This document shows, piece after piece, positions 1,113-22,315 of a stretch of DNA of 23,052 nucleotides (position 1 is its first letter; every line of letters starts with the position of its first letter). This stretch comes from a virus, in IMG/VR virus record IMGVR_UViG_3300006033_000112, positions 1 to 23,052 of that record. One strand, given 5' to 3'. The notes beneath the pieces were generated by a model. The model saw only the letters and a list, made by a program, of their open reading frames with translations. It had not been told where the DNA came from and ran no database searches. The translations under genes were made by a program, and so were the position numbers.

Positions 1113-1129
1113 ACACTGTGGTACAGTGT
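1113..1129. promoter_or_regulatory. Perfect inverted repeat beside att core
   Basis: ACACTGT, a 3-base spacer, then ACAGTGT form a perfect 7-bp dyad 15 bases left of the tRNA homology. It could bind a dimeric protein such as an excisionase or integrase accessory factor, or form a small hairpin after int. The sequence shows only the symmetry; the role is inference. Confidence 0.4.
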
Positions 1130-1143
1130 GGAACCGCGTTACC

Positions 1144-1191
1144 GGACTTTTAATCCCAAGGTCGCAGGTTCGAGACCTGCACGGCCCACCA
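1144..1191 (+). other. attP: attP core: 3' part of tRNA-Lys(UUU)
   Basis: These 48 bases hold the end of the anticodon stem, the loop CTTTTAA with anticodon TTT (1149-1151), the variable region, a perfect T-arm (GCAGG 1164-1168, loop TTCGAGA, CCTGC 1176-1180), the 3' acceptor strand ACGGCCC, discriminator A and encoded CCA (1189-1191). No 5' half exists: the bases to the left lack a D-arm and a GGGCCGT acceptor strand, and two anticodon-stem pairs (1142 and 1143) already mismatch. It is therefore not a tRNA gene but the part a phage carries to rebuild the host tRNA on integration. The homology probably starts at GGA (1144), with strand exchange in or near the anticodon loop as is usual for tRNA-targeting integrases. 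Confidence 0.88.
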
Positions 1192-1193
1192 CA

Positions 1194-1205
1194 CCTGACC
1201 TGCGG
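1194..1205. repeat. Direct repeat B, copy 2
   Basis: Exact second copy of CCTGACCTGCGG (first copy 1072-1083), three bases past the tRNA CCA end. With copy 1 it brackets the att core. Confidence 0.5.
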
Positions 1206-3427: not shown

Positions 3428-5356
3428 TCACTCGGCGCGTGCGCTCAGGTTGGCGAGCAGCGTGTCAAGGCGATAGTCGCCGCTGTCGAACTCGAGCGTG
3501 ATGAGCTCGCCTTCAACGGTCATGCGCAGAAGGCGCACATCGATCGCGCCTGCCTCGCTCCCGGTGAGCCTCACGATGTCCCCGCCGCGGACGGCCGTGA
3601 GATCGGCCACCGCCCCATCGATGGTGAGCAGGGTCCGCACCGTCACGGAGCCGCGCACGCGCTGTCGGCCGTTCTCGGCGTTGGCCTCCCAGGCGACCAT
3701 GCCTGCGGCGGTATCGTCGTCAACCTGGGCGGTGATCTCGCCGTAACGCTGGATGCCGAGTGCCACGAGCGGGTGCGTCTCGTCTTGATCGGGACCGGCG
3801 TACGTGGTCTTCATGCCGTCAGGCCGCTCGTAGTGGACGTATGTCCCCGAGGTCATCTCGTCGAGCGACGACAGCTCGAGCTGCGGCAGCTCCTCGCACG
3901 AGTGAAGCGGCAGGAGGTACGCCGGGGCGGTCGGGCGGTCCCACACGTGCGGGAACGCGTCGACCGGGAACGTGGCCACATCCCAGTGGCGGCCTTCGTA
4001 CCAGCCGTATTCGATCGGTGCGCGCTCCATGAGCGTGGCGAACTTCTCGTTCATCGTCGTGGAGTCGAACATCAGCGGCATCAGCGGCTGGGCGGTGTGC
4101 TGGATGAATGGGTAGGCGGCCACTGGCGTCAGGCCGTAGGGCAAATCGATGTCGGAATCGATGATGTTATCAGCGACGGTCTGGGTATCCACGGTCGTCA
4201 GCCCGCGCCCGTTGACCACGATGGCCGATATGGCGATCCCCTGCGCGGCGAGGTTCGGGACGCGCCAGGCGTTCGTGGCGAGAGCGATGGCCACCCACTT
4301 CGTCCCGGGTGGCATAGCCAGGTCGACGGTGCCGCCGGTGCTGTTCTGCAGCGTCAACGGGGTCCCGGCGATGACGCCTTCGCTATCGCCACGGAGCACC
4401 ATGACGCCGTAGCTCGTGGTGGCAGGCTTGCTCCAGGCGAATCGCAGGTTCGTGATGCCGCGCTCGTCGTAGTAGTCGATGCCTGCGCGCCGGTACCAGA
4501 CCGGCGTACCGTTGACCCACAGCGTGCTGATGAGGATGCCGAGGCCTGCCGAGGTTGGCGTCCAGGCCGCTGGCACGGCCAGGCAGATCGCCGCCCAGAC
4601 GGTGCCAGCGGGGAGCGCGAGGTCGATGGTCGCCCCCGTGCCGGTGTTCGAGTACGGGGTCGCCGACACCACGCCTTCTGCGGTGCCGCGGTAGACGATG
4701 AGGCCGAAGTTGGTGTTCGCGGCCTTGCTCCACGTCGCCTGGATGCGGTTCACGCCGTTTTCCGGATCGAAGAACTGCATGCCGCAGACCCCGACCGCCT
4801 GCACGCCGTTGGTGAGGCCGAGCCACACGCCTGCCTCGGTCACCACCGGCGGCGTGATCCCGCTGCCACGGTTCGTCGCGTCGGACCATGCGTCGACGGT
4901 GTAGGGCTGCTCGCCTTTCGTGAGGCCGATCCACCAGGACGACGATGACGGCGTGACGGCGGGGCGGATTGCCCCGGACCCTACGGCCGCGTCCTGCCAT
5001 TCGCGCCACTGGCGCAAGCGGTTGTCGGCGTAAAGTGCGGGCGTGCGCTTGAGCGAGCCTACCCATGCGCCTTTGCCCATGACGATGAGCGGACTGCCTG
5101 GCACCGGCCGCTTGACGATGACGCCGCGCCAGCCCGTGCCGTGGATGTGCACCTCTGCGCCCTGAAGGTCAGGTGCGCTCATGTCCTCGAACGCCACAGG
5201 GATGCTGGCGGCCTCGTAGCCGATGCCACGAGCCACGGAGTAGCTCGGGTGCCCCTCGAGCCTGAGCGCGCGCTCTGCGCCGCCTACGGGCGTCACGGTG
5301 ACCACCGGCGGGTCGGGGCTGATGATGATGTTGGTGGAGTCGTCGCCGGTCGGCAT
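3428..5356 (-). CDS. Large minor tail protein, probable tail-tip hub
   Basis: A 642-residue structural protein encoded directly after the distal tail protein, where the tail-associated hub or lysin normally stands. The N-terminal 120 residues and the C-terminal region (about 400-642) look like the two halves of a hub protein of the Gp37/Tal sort. The middle holds two tandem beta-rich repeats, about residues 202-283 and 301-383, with matching landmarks: ATWSKA and AWSKP, YRGTAEGVV and LRGDSEGVI, IDLALPAGT and VDLAMPPGT, LWVNG and IVVNG. These look like carbohydrate-binding or immunoglobulin-like folds inserted into the hub and could contact the cell surface. No peptidase or hydrolase motif is visible. 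ATG 5356 follows the preceding stop by a few bases, with GGGGTGA as ribosome site. Confidence 0.75.
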   Translation of the reverse strand: MPTGDDSTNIIISPDPPVVTVTPVGGAERALRLEGHPSYSVARGIGYEAASIPVAFEDMSAPDLQGAEVHIHGTGWRGVIVKRPVPGSPLIVMGKGAWVGSLKRTPALYADNRLRQWREWQDAAVGSGAIRPAVTPSSSSWWIGLTKGEQPYTVDAWSDATNRGSGITPPVVTEAGVWLGLTNGVQAVGVCGMQFFDPENGVNRIQATWSKAANTNFGLIVYRGTAEGVVSATPYSNTGTGATIDLALPAGTVWAAICLAVPAAWTPTSAGLGILISTLWVNGTPVWYRRAGIDYYDERGITNLRFAWSKPATTSYGVMVLRGDSEGVIAGTPLTLQNSTGGTVDLAMPPGTKWVAIALATNAWRVPNLAAQGIAISAIVVNGRGLTTVDTQTVADNIIDSDIDLPYGLTPVAAYPFIQHTAQPLMPLMFDSTTMNEKFATLMERAPIEYGWYEGRHWDVATFPVDAFPHVWDRPTAPAYLLPLHSCEELPQLELSSLDEMTSGTYVHYERPDGMKTTYAGPDQDETHPLVALGIQRYGEITAQVDDDTAAGMVAWEANAENGRQRVRGSVTVRTLLTIDGAVADLTAVRGGDIVRLTGSEAGAIDVRLLRMTVEGELITLEFDSGDYRLDTLLANLSARAE

Positions 5357-11551: not shown

Positions 11552-11878
11552 CTAGATCCCCGCGTACAGCAGCCCCGTCCCCGAGAGGTGGCGGCGGATG
11601 ACGCGGTCGAGCGTCGGCACGTCGGCGTACTCATAGCGCGCTCGTCCGACCTGCTCGCTCTTGACCGGCGGCGAATCGATGAACTCGACTGCGGCGAACA
11701 CGGCGGCCTCGTACGCGGACTGCGTGGCGTCGGTGACCGCGTTCGGCCAGATCGCCGCGTCGACAGCGGCCCGCGCCTCCGGGAGCGCGGCTGTGAAGTC
11801 GGCCTCCGAAAGCGTGCCGCCAGCGGCGACGTATGTCGCGTACTCGGTAGGTTCGGGGAGCGGCTGAAGGTCAGGCAA
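11552..11878 (-). CDS. Head-tail connector (Gp6/gp15-like adaptor)
   Basis: A 108-residue helical protein placed before the neck genes, as head-tail connector adaptors of the HK97 gp6 or SPP1 gp15 kind are. It shows an adaptor-like helical layout: LSEADFTAALPEARAAVDAA, then AVTDATQSAYEAAVFAAVEFI, ending in LDRVIRRHLSGTGLLYAG. The start appears to be TTG 11878, with GAGAGG about ten bases upstream and an eight-base overlap with the preceding stop; no ATG or GTG is better placed. It should form the ring below the portal. Confidence 0.72.
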   Translation of the reverse strand: MPDLQPLPEPTEYATYVAAGGTLSEADFTAALPEARAAVDAAIWPNAVTDATQSAYEAAVFAAVEFIDSPPVKSEQVGRARYEYADVPTLDRVIRRHLSGTGLLYAGI

Positions 11879-12554
11879 TGGTGACCGTCCTCTCGGCCAT
11901 GGCCGCGCCGGGGAGCGCGAACCGGAGCGTGTAGGTGTGACCGGGCTCGACCGGCAGCGCGTACGTGCCGAGCGTGTTGCCGACGGTCGTGGCGTTCATG
12001 AGGGCGCCGCCTGTGATCGCCTCGATGCGCATCCCGAGCGCGTCTGCCGTCGAGCCTCCGACGCTTGCCACACCGAGCGGCTCGTCGTCGTCGTCGAGCG
12101 TGGCCTCGGTGATCGTGACCCACCCGGCCGGGATGCTTTCCGCCACCGGAAGCGCCTCGATGACGGCCTGTGCCGCCGCCGCAGCCTCGCCTGTCTTGGC
12201 GTAGTCAGCCGCGATACCGTCCACCACCGTATCCACCGCCGCCAGCGGCGTGAGTACGTCATCCTTCGCGTGGTCGTAGGCGGCGGTGAGCGTCATCGCA
12301 TCGCCTGCGCGTGCGGGTATCGTCGTGAGGCCGTCATCCCACACGCTCGCGTAGTAGGTCACGCCGCCGATGCGTGCGTCGAAGATGAACTCCAGCAGCG
12401 TGCCGGGTGCCGGATGAGCGAAGTTGTACACGCCGCTCCCCGCGATGGCTTCGGTGATGCCAGCCGTGGCGCGTGCGGTGTGGACGGCACCAGCGGCGGT
12501 GAGGATGGTCACGCCTGGGGTGATGCCTGTCTGTCCTGCGTCGAATGAGGGCAT
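11871..12554 (-). CDS. Structural protein of unknown role beside deacetylase fibre
   Basis: A 227-residue acidic protein. About residues 1-90 are beta-rich (GVTILTAAGAVHTARAT, then GVTYYASVWDDG). Residues 85-140 form an Ala-rich helix (DHAKDDVLTPLAAVDTVVDG), perhaps a trimeric stalk. Residues 143-227 are a second beta domain ending YTLRFALPGAAMAERTVTIA. This head-stalk-head layout fits a virion appendage such as a head fibre or neck whisker. ATG 12554 has AAGGAG in good spacing. It lies between the deacetylase gene and the connector, and keeps the high GC of the structural genes, unlike the deacetylase. I recognise no family. Confidence 0.6.
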   Translation of the reverse strand: MPSFDAGQTGITPGVTILTAAGAVHTARATAGITEAIAGSGVYNFAHPAPGTLLEFIFDARIGGVTYYASVWDDGLTTIPARAGDAMTLTAAYDHAKDDVLTPLAAVDTVVDGIAADYAKTGEAAAAAQAVIEALPVAESIPAGWVTITEATLDDDDEPLGVASVGGSTADALGMRIEAITGGALMNATTVGNTLGTYALPVEPGHTYTLRFALPGAAMAERTVTIA

Positions 12555-12563
12555 CGTGTCTCC

Positions 12564-13916
12564 TTAGTCGATACGCTTGACGCGCCAAATCCGCTCCGCG
12601 AGCACTACATCGCTGCCTGTCGTGTTGTGCAGCCGAATCTTCACTGCGCCGTTTCCATAGCTCCAACACGTCCACATGACCCCTGCTTCCAGCGCACCTG
12701 TTGGTTGTGCGACATGGGCGTGTGTGGCGATGATTGACGTGTCGTACACTGTCACATCAACGACACTTCCGGCAGTCAGCGTCCGGGCCGTCATTGTGTA
12801 CGTGATGTCTGTCCGAGCAGTTGTAAACCGTTGCCACGGCTTCCATGCTGCACCGTCCCATTTCCGAATATACACCAGCGCGTCGGAGCCGGACTTGTAG
12901 AACAACTGATACTGCCAGCCATTCGCGTGAGTCCATTCCTCTACAATACCGCTCCCCAGGGTCCACCCAATAGCGGGGAACACCCGCTGCGAGATATAGA
13001 GCGATGCGGGGGCATCAGTCTCAAGCCTTGCGGATATGACTTCCGGTAAGGCATAGGAGTTCGTTGACACGTAGCCATTAGGCTTGATGTTGAAGTATCG
13101 TGTGGCACCCAAGCCCGAACCACTGACAGTGCCGAACACGCGGAGTCCGTCGAATGGGCTTACGATGTCGATGCCTTTGGATTGAACGTAGTCAATGACC
13201 TGACCGACAAGCTCGGCGTCGAAGTCATCCGTTCCACAGTGGAGCATGAATACGACCCACTTGCCGTTGGTGTAGGCGTCATCGACGAGGGCCTGGAACT
13301 CGGAGAGGGAGTTGAGCGATTCCTCCATCATCGTACCGAGCGCACGCCGGTAGATGGCATAATCCTTGAGGTCAGCGGTATTGCTGCTGGTGCCGGTGTT
13401 GAATCCGGCCACGTAATACTTGCTGACGATGGGGTACTGCGCGGCCTGGATCGCGCCCCACGGATAGACGATTGAGTGGACGTGCAGCCCGTAGCCAGCG
13501 AACGTTTCGAGGAAAGTCTTGCAGTCAGCCTCGATCTCGTCGTCGGTCATCGTCGTGAGATTCGTGTGCGCCATCGTGTGCGAGAGGACTTCCCACCCGT
13601 GGTCGTCCTGCAACGCCTTAACCTCGGCGCGTTTGGCGGCGTCAGTGACAAGCGCGGCATTGCCGGGGATTGCCAAGCCACACGGTACACCCTTGCCAAT
13701 GAACAACGGCTTAAGGACGCTGAGTACCGCGTCGTGGCCGTCGTCGTCAATGAACGTCACGAGCGGGCGCGGCGACTCGGTGTTGCGGCAACCCGCCACA
13801 ACACGCAGGTTCGCATCACCGAGCGCACTCGTGAGGCCGGTCACAGCCCCGATAGCGTGCGCGTCAGAGGATGCGGCGCGGTGTGCAGCGTCGATGGGGA
13901 GTCGTGCGGTGGGCAT
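12564..13916 (-). CDS. Polysaccharide deacetylase fused to a fibre/knob module
   Basis: A 450-residue protein. Residues 1-40 contain DAHAIGAVTGLTSALGDAN, the short motif common at fibre attachment ends. Residues 50-260 are a NodB-type (CE4) deacetylase domain: TFIDDDG with Asp57-59, the metal-binding SHTMAH with His113 and His117, VYPWG at 150-154, and MLHCGTDD with His226. Such enzymes remove acetyl groups from GlcNAc- or peptidoglycan-type sugars. Residues 285-365 resemble a pyocin-knob fibre tip (GWQYQLFY, WDGAAWKPWQRF), followed by a beta domain to the end. It is probably a virion appendage that modifies or binds surface glycans. The gene has lower GC than its neighbours (32-34 of 60 G+C per line counted in 12721-12960, against 44 of 60 in 12001-12060). 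ATG 13916 has AAGGAGG six bases upstream. Confidence 0.85.
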   Translation of the reverse strand: MPTARLPIDAAHRAASSDAHAIGAVTGLTSALGDANLRVVAGCRNTESPRPLVTFIDDDGHDAVLSVLKPLFIGKGVPCGLAIPGNAALVTDAAKRAEVKALQDDHGWEVLSHTMAHTNLTTMTDDEIEADCKTFLETFAGYGLHVHSIVYPWGAIQAAQYPIVSKYYVAGFNTGTSSNTADLKDYAIYRRALGTMMEESLNSLSEFQALVDDAYTNGKWVVFMLHCGTDDFDAELVGQVIDYVQSKGIDIVSPFDGLRVFGTVSGSGLGATRYFNIKPNGYVSTNSYALPEVISARLETDAPASLYISQRVFPAIGWTLGSGIVEEWTHANGWQYQLFYKSGSDALVYIRKWDGAAWKPWQRFTTARTDITYTMTARTLTAGSVVDVTVYDTSIIATHAHVAQPTGALEAGVMWTCWSYGNGAVKIRLHNTTGSDVVLAERIWRVKRID

Positions 13917-13970
13917 GTGGTGCCTCCTTCGTCGATGTCAGTGTGCGGGGGAGGTCACTCTAGATGCAGT

Positions 13971-14002
13971 GCGCCCCGCCGGGGGAGAGTCCGACGGGGC
14001 GC
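13971..14002 (-). terminator. GC-rich hairpin behind the capsid gene group
   Basis: A 12-position stem with one mismatch (13971-13982 with 13991-14002) and an 8-base loop stands in the 106-base gap between the acidic protein gene and the deacetylase gene. No T-run follows. It may reduce read-through from the highly expressed capsid genes. The rest of the gap shows only the ribosome site of the next gene. Confidence 0.5.
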
Positions 14003-14022
14003 GAGCGGTGCGGGTGAGAAGG

Positions 14023-14250
14023 CTACTCTTCGTCCTCTTCGTCCTCTTCGGACTCTTCGGACTCTTCGTCCGGATCCGCGGAAGGTTCGATGGCCTCGCG
14101 GATGACGGCGACCGTCGCTTTCGCGTCGATCTCGATGCCGTGCTCCTTGGCGTACGCGATGAGCTCCGCCTTCTTCATGTCGGCGACGGCCTTCGGGGCC
14201 TGGGGCCCCGGTTCGACCGGGTCGACGATCTGCAGCCCGATAGTGCGCAT
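14023..14250 (-). CDS. Small SAP-like protein with acidic tail
   Basis: A 75-residue protein. Residues 25-53 (MKKAELIAYAKEHGIEIDAK and the following helix) match the helix-extension-helix/Rho-N/SAP-like fold, often DNA- or RNA-binding. The last 18 residues are almost only Glu, Asp and Ser, encoded by an imperfect 9-base tandem repeat. Proteins of this form are common directly after major capsid genes; the role is not established and could be head assembly or internal DNA contact. ATG 14250 follows AGAGGAGGAG. Confidence 0.7.
   Translation of the reverse strand: MRTIGLQIVDPVEPGPQAPKAVADMKKAELIAYAKEHGIEIDAKATVAVIREAIEPSADPDEESEESEEDEEDEE
14026..14070. repeat. Five 9-bp tandem repeats (CTCTTCGTC / CTCTTCGGA)
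   Basis: Five contiguous 9-base units, three CTCTTCGTC and two CTCTTCGGA, lie in the 3' end of the SAP-like gene and encode its acidic tail. Unit gain or loss would keep the frame and only change tail length. Confidence 0.9.
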
Positions 14251-14260
14251 GGCTCCTCCT

Positions 14261-15310
14261 CTACGCCTTGTGGCTCAGGTAGATGCCGGCACGCTTGTTC
14301 TCGTAGCCGTCCACCAGGCCGTACTTCCGGTACTTGACGATGTAGCCGTCAGCGTCCGGGTTGTTCTCCGGCAGGATGATGCTCGACGCGACGTGCTTGT
14401 CAAACTTGATGACCGCGGGCTTGTGCACGATCATGAAGTTGATGTCGAGCCCGTACGGGCCGACGTACGTCCACTCGAGGTTCCCCGCGCCATCGGCGAC
14501 CGGGGCAGCGGTGGACCAGGTCGGAGCAGCCGCGCCGGACGTGCCAGCGGTCGAGCATACGAACACGTTGTTGCCGCCGCGGACCTTGTCGCCAAGGACG
14601 TACGCGGTGGCGGCCTCCCACGCGCCGACACCCTCGCCTGCGCGGGTGTAGTGCCCGGCCTCTTCACCGGCGGTCTTGCCGTCGAGCATGTCGATCGCGG
14701 TGTAGAACCGCGACTGCGGGACCTTGACGGCACGCGCGAACGACGCCAGGACCTCGCGGCTCTTGGTCGTGTCGAGCGCCATGATGCCGTTCAGCAGTGT
14801 CGGGGTCGCGAACAGGTACCGCTCCTCGGACGGGACTTCGTCCTCGTCCATCGTGTTCACGGCCGCCAGGAGCGCGGTCAGGAACTCGGCGCCACCGGCG
14901 TACGTCACGCCGGACGACACCTTCGAGATGTTGCTGAGAGCGGCCCAGGAGGCGAACGCGAACGCGTCGGACTCAGGCGCGACCCTCGTGCGGATCAGCT
15001 CGGCCGATGCCTTGCCGAACGCGATGTTGAAGGTCTCCTGGTCGTCCTGCGTGTCGACCTGGATCTTGGTGCCGCGATCGTAGTTGAAGGTCGCGGACTT
15101 CCACGCGACATCGACCGCACCGGTGGTGTAGCCGCTCGCGCGGTCATAGTCGCCGAGGCCGCCGACCACGATCTGCGGGTAGAGAATCTCCTTGGCGTTC
15201 GCTCCGGCCTGCATCAGGTCGGGCGGCGTCACGAGATCGGAGGTGACCGACGCGGCCTTGTAGACCTCGTCGAGCAGCCGGGTGTAACTCTTGGCGAGTG
15301 CGATAGCCAT
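14261..15310 (-). CDS. Major capsid protein with inserted carbohydrate-binding-like domain
   Basis: A 349-residue major capsid protein, HK97-type by length, order (after scaffold) and features such as the N-terminal helix region and the C-terminal FDKHVASSIILPENNPDADGY and YGLVDGYENKRAGIYLSH. Residues about 229-284 do not belong to the capsid core: GAWEAATAYVLGDKVR, FVCSTAGTSGAAAPTW and NLEWTYVG form the Trp-rich repeat of a small CBM5/12-like beta domain seen in many phage virion proteins. Being inserted before the last capsid strands, it would be displayed on the shell in many copies. ATG 15310 has AAGGAG embedded in the last Lys-Glu codons of the scaffold gene. Confidence 0.88.
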   Translation of the reverse strand: MAIALAKSYTRLLDEVYKAASVTSDLVTPPDLMQAGANAKEILYPQIVVGGLGDYDRASGYTTGAVDVAWKSATFNYDRGTKIQVDTQDDQETFNIAFGKASAELIRTRVAPESDAFAFASWAALSNISKVSSGVTYAGGAEFLTALLAAVNTMDEDEVPSEERYLFATPTLLNGIMALDTTKSREVLASFARAVKVPQSRFYTAIDMLDGKTAGEEAGHYTRAGEGVGAWEAATAYVLGDKVRGGNNVFVCSTAGTSGAAAPTWSTAAPVADGAGNLEWTYVGPYGLDINFMIVHKPAVIKFDKHVASSIILPENNPDADGYIVKYRKYGLVDGYENKRAGIYLSHKA

Positions 15311-21555: not shown

Positions 21556-21633
21556 TCACCGCCTCTCGTGCGGCCTTAAGCATAGCTTCCGCTGACTGAC
21601 AGGCTCGGAGGGTGACGCGCTATGCGCGGTCAT
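21556..21633 (-). CDS. Possible 25-residue ORF or remnant of a small gene
   Basis: ATG 21633 has a perfect AAGGAGG six bases upstream, located in the last codons of the preceding gene, and leads to a 25-codon frame ending four bases before the next ATG. Its sequence does not look native. The other frame over the same bases, in phase with the preceding gene after its TAG, reads RVTLRACQSAEAMLKAAREA and runs to a stop that overlaps the next start, and looks more protein-like. One real small gene may have been damaged here. Low certainty. Confidence 0.3.
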   Translation of the reverse strand: MTAHSASPSEPVSQRKLCLRPHERR

Positions 21634-22315
21634 GGTCTGCCTCCTTCCTGAGTGCGTCGTGGGGAAGCATCTGCGATATGAGCGCCGTTCGCTGTTTGTG
21701 TATATCCCTTAGATGGATGGGGCACCGAGCAGCATCACAGTCAACCGCGCAGAGACGACTGTTGCCTCTATTATCGAAGATGTGGCCAACAGGGAAACGG
21801 TAGTATTGGTCGATAGGAAACGGCTTGCTCATGTGCTTACACGGCCACGCAAGTTCTGGCCTAGTCCAACTACCGTTTGCTATCTTTCCCCTACACGCCG
21901 GACAGCCGAAACTATCAGGGATAGTGGGTATGACCGCTTCCACATACCGTGGTACGAACGCGGCTAGATCAGTGAATGCAACAGGGCCAATGCGCTCTAC
22001 AATATCAATGGCAAGATGGGGCGACATGAAGCCGAGTACGAGTTCTCCAAACCCGTGGCAGCGTTCACAGAGGCTTCTTTTGTTGTCGCTCATGCCAGAA
22101 CCCTTACACTTGCGACACATCTTGCGCTCACCAGGACATCGCTTCAATGCAGCACGGCAGTCATGGCAAAGCATCACGCCCGATGCGACAAACCCACCAC
22201 GAGAGGCATCGTTCAAACGCTCGCCACATGAGGTACAAAGATTGTACGCGGCATAACCTCCCCACGAGAACGGGGAGTCCCATGAGTGTTCTCCGACGAC
22301 ATGCGCTCCACCCAT
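21620..22315 (-). CDS. Multi-CxxC zinc protein with DnaJ-type repeats
   Basis: A 231-residue protein rich in paired cysteines: C27/C30, C50/C53, CRKCKGSG at 67-74, CERCHGFG at 83-90, CPAC at 138-141, and further C159, C189, C193 and C198. Two CxxCxGxG units are the signature of the DnaJ cysteine-rich domain, but no J domain is present. The middle (about 95-130) is helical without cysteines. It probably binds several zinc ions and may act in protein or nucleic acid contacts; no function is claimed. GC is clearly lower than around it (30-32 of 60 per line counted in 21781-21960), suggesting recent acquisition. ATG 22315 has AAGGAG formed by the previous gene's last codons. Confidence 0.75.
   Translation of the reverse strand: MGGAHVVGEHSWDSPFSWGGYAAYNLCTSCGERLNDASRGGFVASGVMLCHDCRAALKRCPGERKMCRKCKGSGMSDNKRSLCERCHGFGELVLGFMSPHLAIDIVERIGPVAFTDLAAFVPRYVEAVIPTIPDSFGCPACRGKIANGSWTRPELAWPCKHMSKPFPIDQYYRFPVGHIFDNRGNSRLCAVDCDAARCPIHLRDIHKQRTALISQMLPHDALRKEADHDRA

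Follow-up and report, generated by a model that had tools for sequence, protein, structure and literature searches.

Enzymes with which phages act on the host surface are usually sought at the tail tip. There are precedents for CE4 proteins in phages, for knob fibres and for one deacetylase mounted on the head, that of HFTV1. In HFTV1, gp31 (PDB 8QPG) forms a trimer on the capsid turrets and has a zinc site (PMC12494034), and particles of this virus are often seen with the head touching cells (PMC9973310). The gene for gp31 is located between those for the connectors gp26-29 and that for the tail tube gp35. For lactococcal phages, neck fibres with carbohydrate-binding tips are established (PMC6669499), and in TP901-1 the baseplate genes precede the gene for the neck structure (PMC4493119). 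Here we describe a 450-aa protein with a CE4 domain and a pyocin-type knob, whose gene lies among the head genes of a bacterial phage. This protein is very probably a virion adhesin with a CE4 domain, and, granted that, a head or neck site has slightly better than an even chance. The full reading, a virion-borne deacetylating adhesin that is probably head- or neck-mounted and for which we infer both virion placement and activity, is evenly balanced.

The window, meaning the whole stretch of DNA that was analysed, is a viral record 23,052 bases long. Its genes are on the minus strand, except for the integrase end and one short gene beside the integrase. The minus-strand genes run from the small and large terminase, portal, MuF-type minor head protein, scaffold and major capsid protein to a 75-aa gene, the CE4 gene, a 227-aa gene, the head-tail adaptor and further connector genes. 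These are followed by the tail tube, chaperones, tape measure, a distal-tail-like protein of 402 aa, a tail-tip-like protein of 642 aa, and finally a peptidoglycan-binding protein and an amidase (Table 1). The CE4 gene therefore lies between the capsid genes and the head-tail connector, as the earlier note had stated. The integrase gene at the left end indicates that the phage is temperate. A capsid related to that of the window is carried by an Eggerthella phage, and this sequence relationship hints at a host among the Coriobacteriia. Beside the integrase, one frame translates to RTFNPKVAGSRPARPTT, typical of a read-through tRNA 3' end, which may be an attachment-site remnant; no whole tRNA was found there by ARAGORN. 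A cysteine-rich ORF with a GC and GC3 much below the rest is possibly another recent import. The tail-tip-like protein contains two similar beta-rich stretches, which are possibly binding modules.

Table 1. Positions of features in the window and in loci of other phages
Feature	Locus	Positions	Strand	Remarks
450-aa CE4 deacetylase/knob protein	window	12564..13916	-	intact frame; ATG at 13916, stop at 12564
CE4 motif 1, TFIDDDG	window	13737..13757	-	residues 54-60
CE4 motif 2, SHTMAH	window	13566..13583	-	residues 112-117; metal-binding H113 and H117
CE4 motif 5 region, MLHCGTDD	window	13224..13247	-	residues 224-231; H226
Strong hairpin, 12-bp GC stem	window	13938..14005	-	between capsid-side genes and CE4 gene; fold z -2.69; no T run after
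75-aa acidic protein	window	14023..14250	-	directly after capsid gene; in the place of the 50-85-aa post-capsid genes of relatives
Major capsid protein (phrog_422)	window	14261..15310	-	CBM5/12-like insert at residues 230-283
227-aa probable fibre or collar protein	window	11871..12554	-	adaptor gene start overlaps its end
Head-tail adaptor (phrog_541, E 3e-7)	window	11552..11878	-	TTG start
642-aa tail-tip-like protein	window	3428-5356		two beta-rich stretches, each about 110 aa, in the region of residues 140-390
231-aa cysteine-rich ORF	window	21620-22315		GC 0.546, GC3 0.55
Possible attachment-site remnant	window	1128-1200		beside integrase
Long slot protein with tandem repeats, G004	L129	3371-5371
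Long slot protein with tandem repeats, G002	L056/L131			end of L056, continued at L131 start
Enlarged adaptor, G002	L131	451-1041
Enlarged adaptor, G004	L129	5383-6081
Tail-tube protein with CBM5/12-like domain, G002	L131	2233-2895
Tail-tube protein with similar-looking insert	L057	8347-8994
CE4 protein and lectin look-alike	L130	10277-12780

The CE4 gene has exactly the coordinates given before and is preceded by a strong ribosome site of its own, GAAGGAGGCACCAC. Its product consists of a short anchor (residues 1-45), a CE4 domain (46-262), a pyocin-type knob (about 290-360) and a beta-rich C-terminal tip (about 366-450). All three CE4 motifs that had been pointed out are present, and in an alignment of nine sequences D58, D59, H113, H117, P152 and H226 are invariant. 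From the roles in known CE4 enzymes, D58 is presumably the catalytic base and D59 presumably a metal ligand. Pfam PF01522 gives a weak match above the gathering score (E 3.4e-5; 24.2 bits versus 23.1), and a profile of the protein with six homologues matches many CE4 enzymes in the PDB as well as HFTV1 8qpg. The AF2 model reaches a pLDDT of 85-92 over most of residues 51-150 and of 57-87 up to residue 260, and the modelled domain has a NodB-type fold with DALI-scale Z values of 15-23 against CE4 structures (Foldseek and VIA-align). The assignment to the CE4/NodB deacetylases holds, and the CE4 fold is a firm prediction of the model. The top structural match by VIA-align is the HFTV1 turret head (8qpg_TA; Z 23.1, rmsd 2.5 over 203 residues, 21% identity), followed by a match with Z 20.1, and hhalign of the 450-aa protein to HFTV1 gp31 gives a probability of 85% (E 6e-6). 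The arginine of motif 3 (RxxPxG) is missing, as the protein reads IVYPWG; the homologues and HFTV1 gp31 (YPSG) are also without it. This arginine would seem to be a varying, not a required, CE4 feature, and we leave catalysis by the 450-aa protein as a prediction.

A pyocin-knob-like part had likewise been proposed. A knob profile matches R2-pyocin fibres in the PDB (E 1.8e-4 and 7.9e-4), and a profile built without the row of the window scores the protein at 21.0 bits, versus 8.5 for the best of 2000 shuffles. The knob is also supported by Foldseek of the model (6cl5, E 8.8e-5), and the signature G...Q...Y.R....W is present. Judged by these profile comparisons, the pyocin-type knob is real. 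The fibre-type motif that had been proposed for the N terminus could not be confirmed: for residues 1-45 no detectable relative was found, they are tied to no family, and they are modelled at a pLDDT of about 35.

The base composition sets the CE4 gene apart. Its GC content is 0.591, versus 0.662 +/- 0.021 in the 18 other structural and lysis genes, and its GC3 is 0.72 versus 0.86 +/- 0.04, both at a z of about -3.5. The lowest-GC stretch of 1350 nt in the structural block starts at 12414, and within the gene the deficit is greatest in the knob and C-terminal half. The neighbouring 227-aa gene has a normal GC content (0.689), so the CE4 gene, and not the gene pair, looks recently acquired. The lower GC and the absence of the gene from the loci of 107 relatives, described next, support the later insertion that the earlier note had suggested, as far as composition and gene content can tell.

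Related phages were checked for presence or absence of the gene at this locus, as had been advised. In the 107 loci, obtained from scans with the capsid and terminase proteins, a profile search of all frames found no CE4 relative; as the loci are partial, this absence covers mainly the fetched stretches. In the readable relatives, the capsid gene is followed by at most one short gene and then by the connector series, and in Eggerthella phage PMBT5 the annotated connector comes directly after the capsid gene. In L089, a 284-aa ORF follows the capsid gene; it overlaps with two smaller ORFs of a different frame, and we regarded it as spurious. Across the block, L057 and L058 resemble the window most. 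Both match it on either side of the slot between capsid and adaptor, but their capsid is of a different type and the adaptor comes directly after its gene. The adaptor of the window is 57-61% identical to those of L057 and L131. The genes flanking the slot have co-linear homologues in L057 and L058, which speaks against a chimeric assembly, though the capsid gene differs there.

The slot is filled in two relatives, G002 (L056/L131) and G004 (L059/L129), which have three to four extra genes between capsid and adaptor. The terminase of G002 is 81% identical to that of the window, and the ends of this genome overlap by 74 bases, so it is probably a complete circle. Its slot holds genes for proteins of 122 aa and 102 aa and for a long protein with repeats, followed by an adaptor with about 100 extra N-terminal residues. 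In G004 there is first a 349-aa ORF, read by eye and presumably a putative glycosyltransferase, then a similar 122-aa protein, a 109-aa protein and a protein of 666 aa that has long repeats and matches DUF2341, and finally an enlarged adaptor of 232 aa. The long proteins of both slots carry tandem repeats (such as SVTAGLTLAA), and both adjoin the 122-aa protein, which is phrog_5417-like. The extra N-terminal residues of the enlarged adaptors look beta-rich; they gave no family match beyond weak PHROG hits and no BppU hit. It is possible that these extensions are a built-in neck attachment site for appendages. Judged by gene content, this group of phages uses the capsid-adaptor interval to house putative virion genes that are exchangeable.

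The tail end of the genomes was compared as well. The window and G004 have no fibre-sized gene in the interval from the tail-tip gene to the amidase. Where the slot is empty and the tail end is complete, relatives have ORFs there that count as fibre-sized by their size and position. A clean swap, in which the tail fibre is lost when the slot is filled, is rejected as a rule, as G002 combines a filled slot with a short fibre gene behind that for the tail tip. A filled slot and a missing tail fibre thus go together as a tendency only.

The 227-aa neighbour resembles, in its middle and C-terminal part, long putative fibre proteins in L123 and L124. It showed no relation to Pfam, PHROG or PDB entries; the PDB sequence search returned antibody chains and a transporter only (E 0.026 or worse), and an AF2 model from the single sequence has a pLDDT of 37 and no confident fold. 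The idea that it is a split-off N-terminal domain of the G002 adaptor was dropped because there is no BLAST link to the enlarged adaptor. On the other side of the CE4 gene, the capsid protein has a CBM5/12-like insert of about 55 aa. A domain 54% identical to it sits in the tail-tube protein of G002, and the tube protein of L057 has a similar-looking insert. It seems that this decoration domain has moved between capsid and tail tube.

Close relatives of the 450-aa protein were not found by single-sequence scans of genome contigs and viral contigs, and alignments were needed. Homologues with the order CE4, knob and tip are present in Staphylococcus phages EW42, Madawaska and Alsa_2, in a Clostridium prophage (L113), in a further prophage (L114) and in a Paenibacillus prophage (L118). 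The Paenibacillus protein has its N-terminal anchor in common with fibre-like genes that immediately follow Dit. Phage structural proteins with a CE4 domain are fairly common (a single search gave 32 records, many already annotated as 'minor tail protein' or 'glucosaminyl deacetylase'), and the rarity that the earlier note had ascribed to glycan deacetylation by virion proteins was overstated. That note had also regarded the gene position as unusual. This is correct in that most phage CE4 genes come after the tail genes, behind the tape measure, as in Orchid, Eyre, ODay, ZiggyZoo, Lilmac1015, Gorpy and EvePickles, but several unrelated phages have one in the head-to-tail-tube block. In the Gordonia phages LittleMunchkin (gp20), AnClar (gp19) and Forza (gp90), it lies between the capsid genes and the head-to-tail adaptor; in Neville, it is just after the tail-tube gene; and in contig L130, it is between the connectors and the probable tail tube. 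By gene order, this placement recurs across unrelated viruses. The CE4 protein of L130 (497 aa, with a hydrophobic N terminus) is paired with a 337-aa look-alike of LamG/concanavalin-type lectins.

We propose that the short N-terminal anchor holds a zinc-type CE4 domain, which would be followed by the knob and the beta-rich tip. As with the HFTV1 turret head and other knob fibres, the protein would probably form trimers. Its most likely site would be the neck or the outside of the capsid, where it would be a collar appendage, a turret or a head fibre, perhaps mounted on or beside the adjacent 227-aa protein. The knob or the tip would bind a host surface glycan, from which the CE4 domain is predicted to remove acetyl groups. 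In this way, the phage could make an initial, reversible contact and trim wall or capsule glycan locally before its tail comes into play. A head or neck appendage, as already suggested in the earlier note, is plausible because the nearest solved structure is the HFTV1 turret head, whose gene is in the equivalent block, and because two relatives place other putative virion genes in the slot and have an N-terminally extended adaptor. Several points argue against it. The CE4 domain order is unlike that of HFTV1, residues 1-45 give no clue to attachment, the motif-3 arginine is missing, and the trade-off with the tail fibre is not absolute, as G002 has both.

The main rival, and a serious one, is that the protein is an ordinary tail-tip receptor-binding fibre with a CE4 domain and a knob, the gene of which was captured in the head block and the product of which still assembles on the tail. 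All knob-bearing homologues with a known context (L113, L114, EW42, Madawaska and Alsa_2) are tail-operon proteins. Such a gene in the tail-fibre operon of related phages had been named beforehand as evidence against a head or neck site; these homologues come close to it, but they belong to unrelated phages. The window is without a fibre gene between the tail-tip gene and the peptidoglycan-binding and amidase genes, so its receptor-binding protein has to come from elsewhere, and gene position is no strict guide to virion position, as the TP901-1 neck structure illustrates (PMC4493119). On the other hand, where relatives have fibre-sized genes, these come after the tail-tip gene, and the fold is matched best by a capsid turret. 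In addition, relatives fill the slot with genes linked to the neck adaptor, and the tail-fibre homologues have N-terminal regions much longer than the anchor. We consider assembly on the tail a real possibility, to which we give roughly a one-in-three chance.

A lysogenic-conversion gene, made in the lysogen to alter host surface glycans and block superinfection and absent from virions, is improbable. The temperate lifestyle shown by the integrase gene, the GC below that of the neighbours and the absence from relatives are in line with it, and the strong upstream hairpin could decouple expression of the CE4 gene. However, this hairpin was not called a terminator in the terminator scan, no promoter was found in the intergenic gap before the gene, and no terminator was found after it. 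The sole promoter-like site, at 14403-14376, lies inside the capsid gene and is one match near chance, and a moron with its own promoter was therefore rejected. Moreover, residues 1-45 contain no evident signal peptide, a knob is typical of particle fibres, and the gene is co-directional with the structural operon, the next gene starting 9 bp after the CE4 stop (12564 to 12554). A purely adhesive protein, with the CE4 domain as a binding module without useful catalysis, would agree with the YPWG of motif 3 and with catalytically dead family members such as BA3943, which is among the structural matches of the model, but it has little chance, as the protein retains the two aspartates of motif 1, the pair of metal histidines and the histidine of motif 5, and HFTV1 gp31 holds zinc with a comparable motif set (PMC12494034).

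If the deacetylating adhesin is indeed on the head or neck, the new element is a CE4 enzyme at such a site in a bacterial phage, as the sites themselves have precedent. In this analysis, no other bacterial prophage-type genome turned up with CE4 and a pyocin knob combined in its capsid-adaptor slot. A more tentative reading has a little less than an even chance: the head or neck of a bacterial siphophage would carry a glycan deacetylase, as a parallel to the HFTV1 capsid turret, and the capsid-adaptor interval would be a general slot of tailed viruses for exchangeable adhesins of head or neck, which in several unrelated lineages would include CE4 deacetylases. Head-first glycan modification would then be common to bacterial and archaeal tailed viruses. 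If capsid-side CE4 proteins sit on heads or necks, a class of adsorption enzymes would be misplaced under the label 'minor tail protein' in the records of actinophages. Gordonia phages with this gene placement have been isolated, so the idea can be tested now.

These Gordonia phages share with the window the CE4 gene between the capsid genes and the head-to-tail adaptor. Their CE4 proteins, annotated as 'minor tail protein' or 'glucosaminyl deacetylase', are distant in sequence from that of the window (best E 0.02-0.3). The tail fibres of EW42, Madawaska, Alsa_2, L113, L114 and L118 have the same run of CE4, knob and beta-rich tip at 24-35% identity, but their genes are in tail-fibre or baseplate operons and their N-terminal regions are longer. 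The neck passage structures of 936 and P335 phages are similar in that they are neck-mounted fibres ending in carbohydrate-binding or carbohydrate-active modules (PMC6669499, PMC4493119). They differ by an N-terminal BppU-like ring and a long coiled coil, they have no CE4 enzyme, and in TP901-1 the gene comes after the baseplate genes. HFTV1 gp31 belongs to an archaeal virus, stands on a separate turret base protein and is about 21% identical; its CE4 domain is C-terminal, after a galactose-binding-like domain, and it has no pyocin knob. The window protein, in contrast, has about 45 residues before the CE4 domain, a knob and tip after it, and no preceding galactose-binding-like domain. Both have the CE4 fold with similar DD, HxxxH, YPxG and H motifs, and gp31 is a virion protein that combines a deacetylase with binding domains and whose gene, in the head-to-tail-tube block, adjoins another appendage gene.
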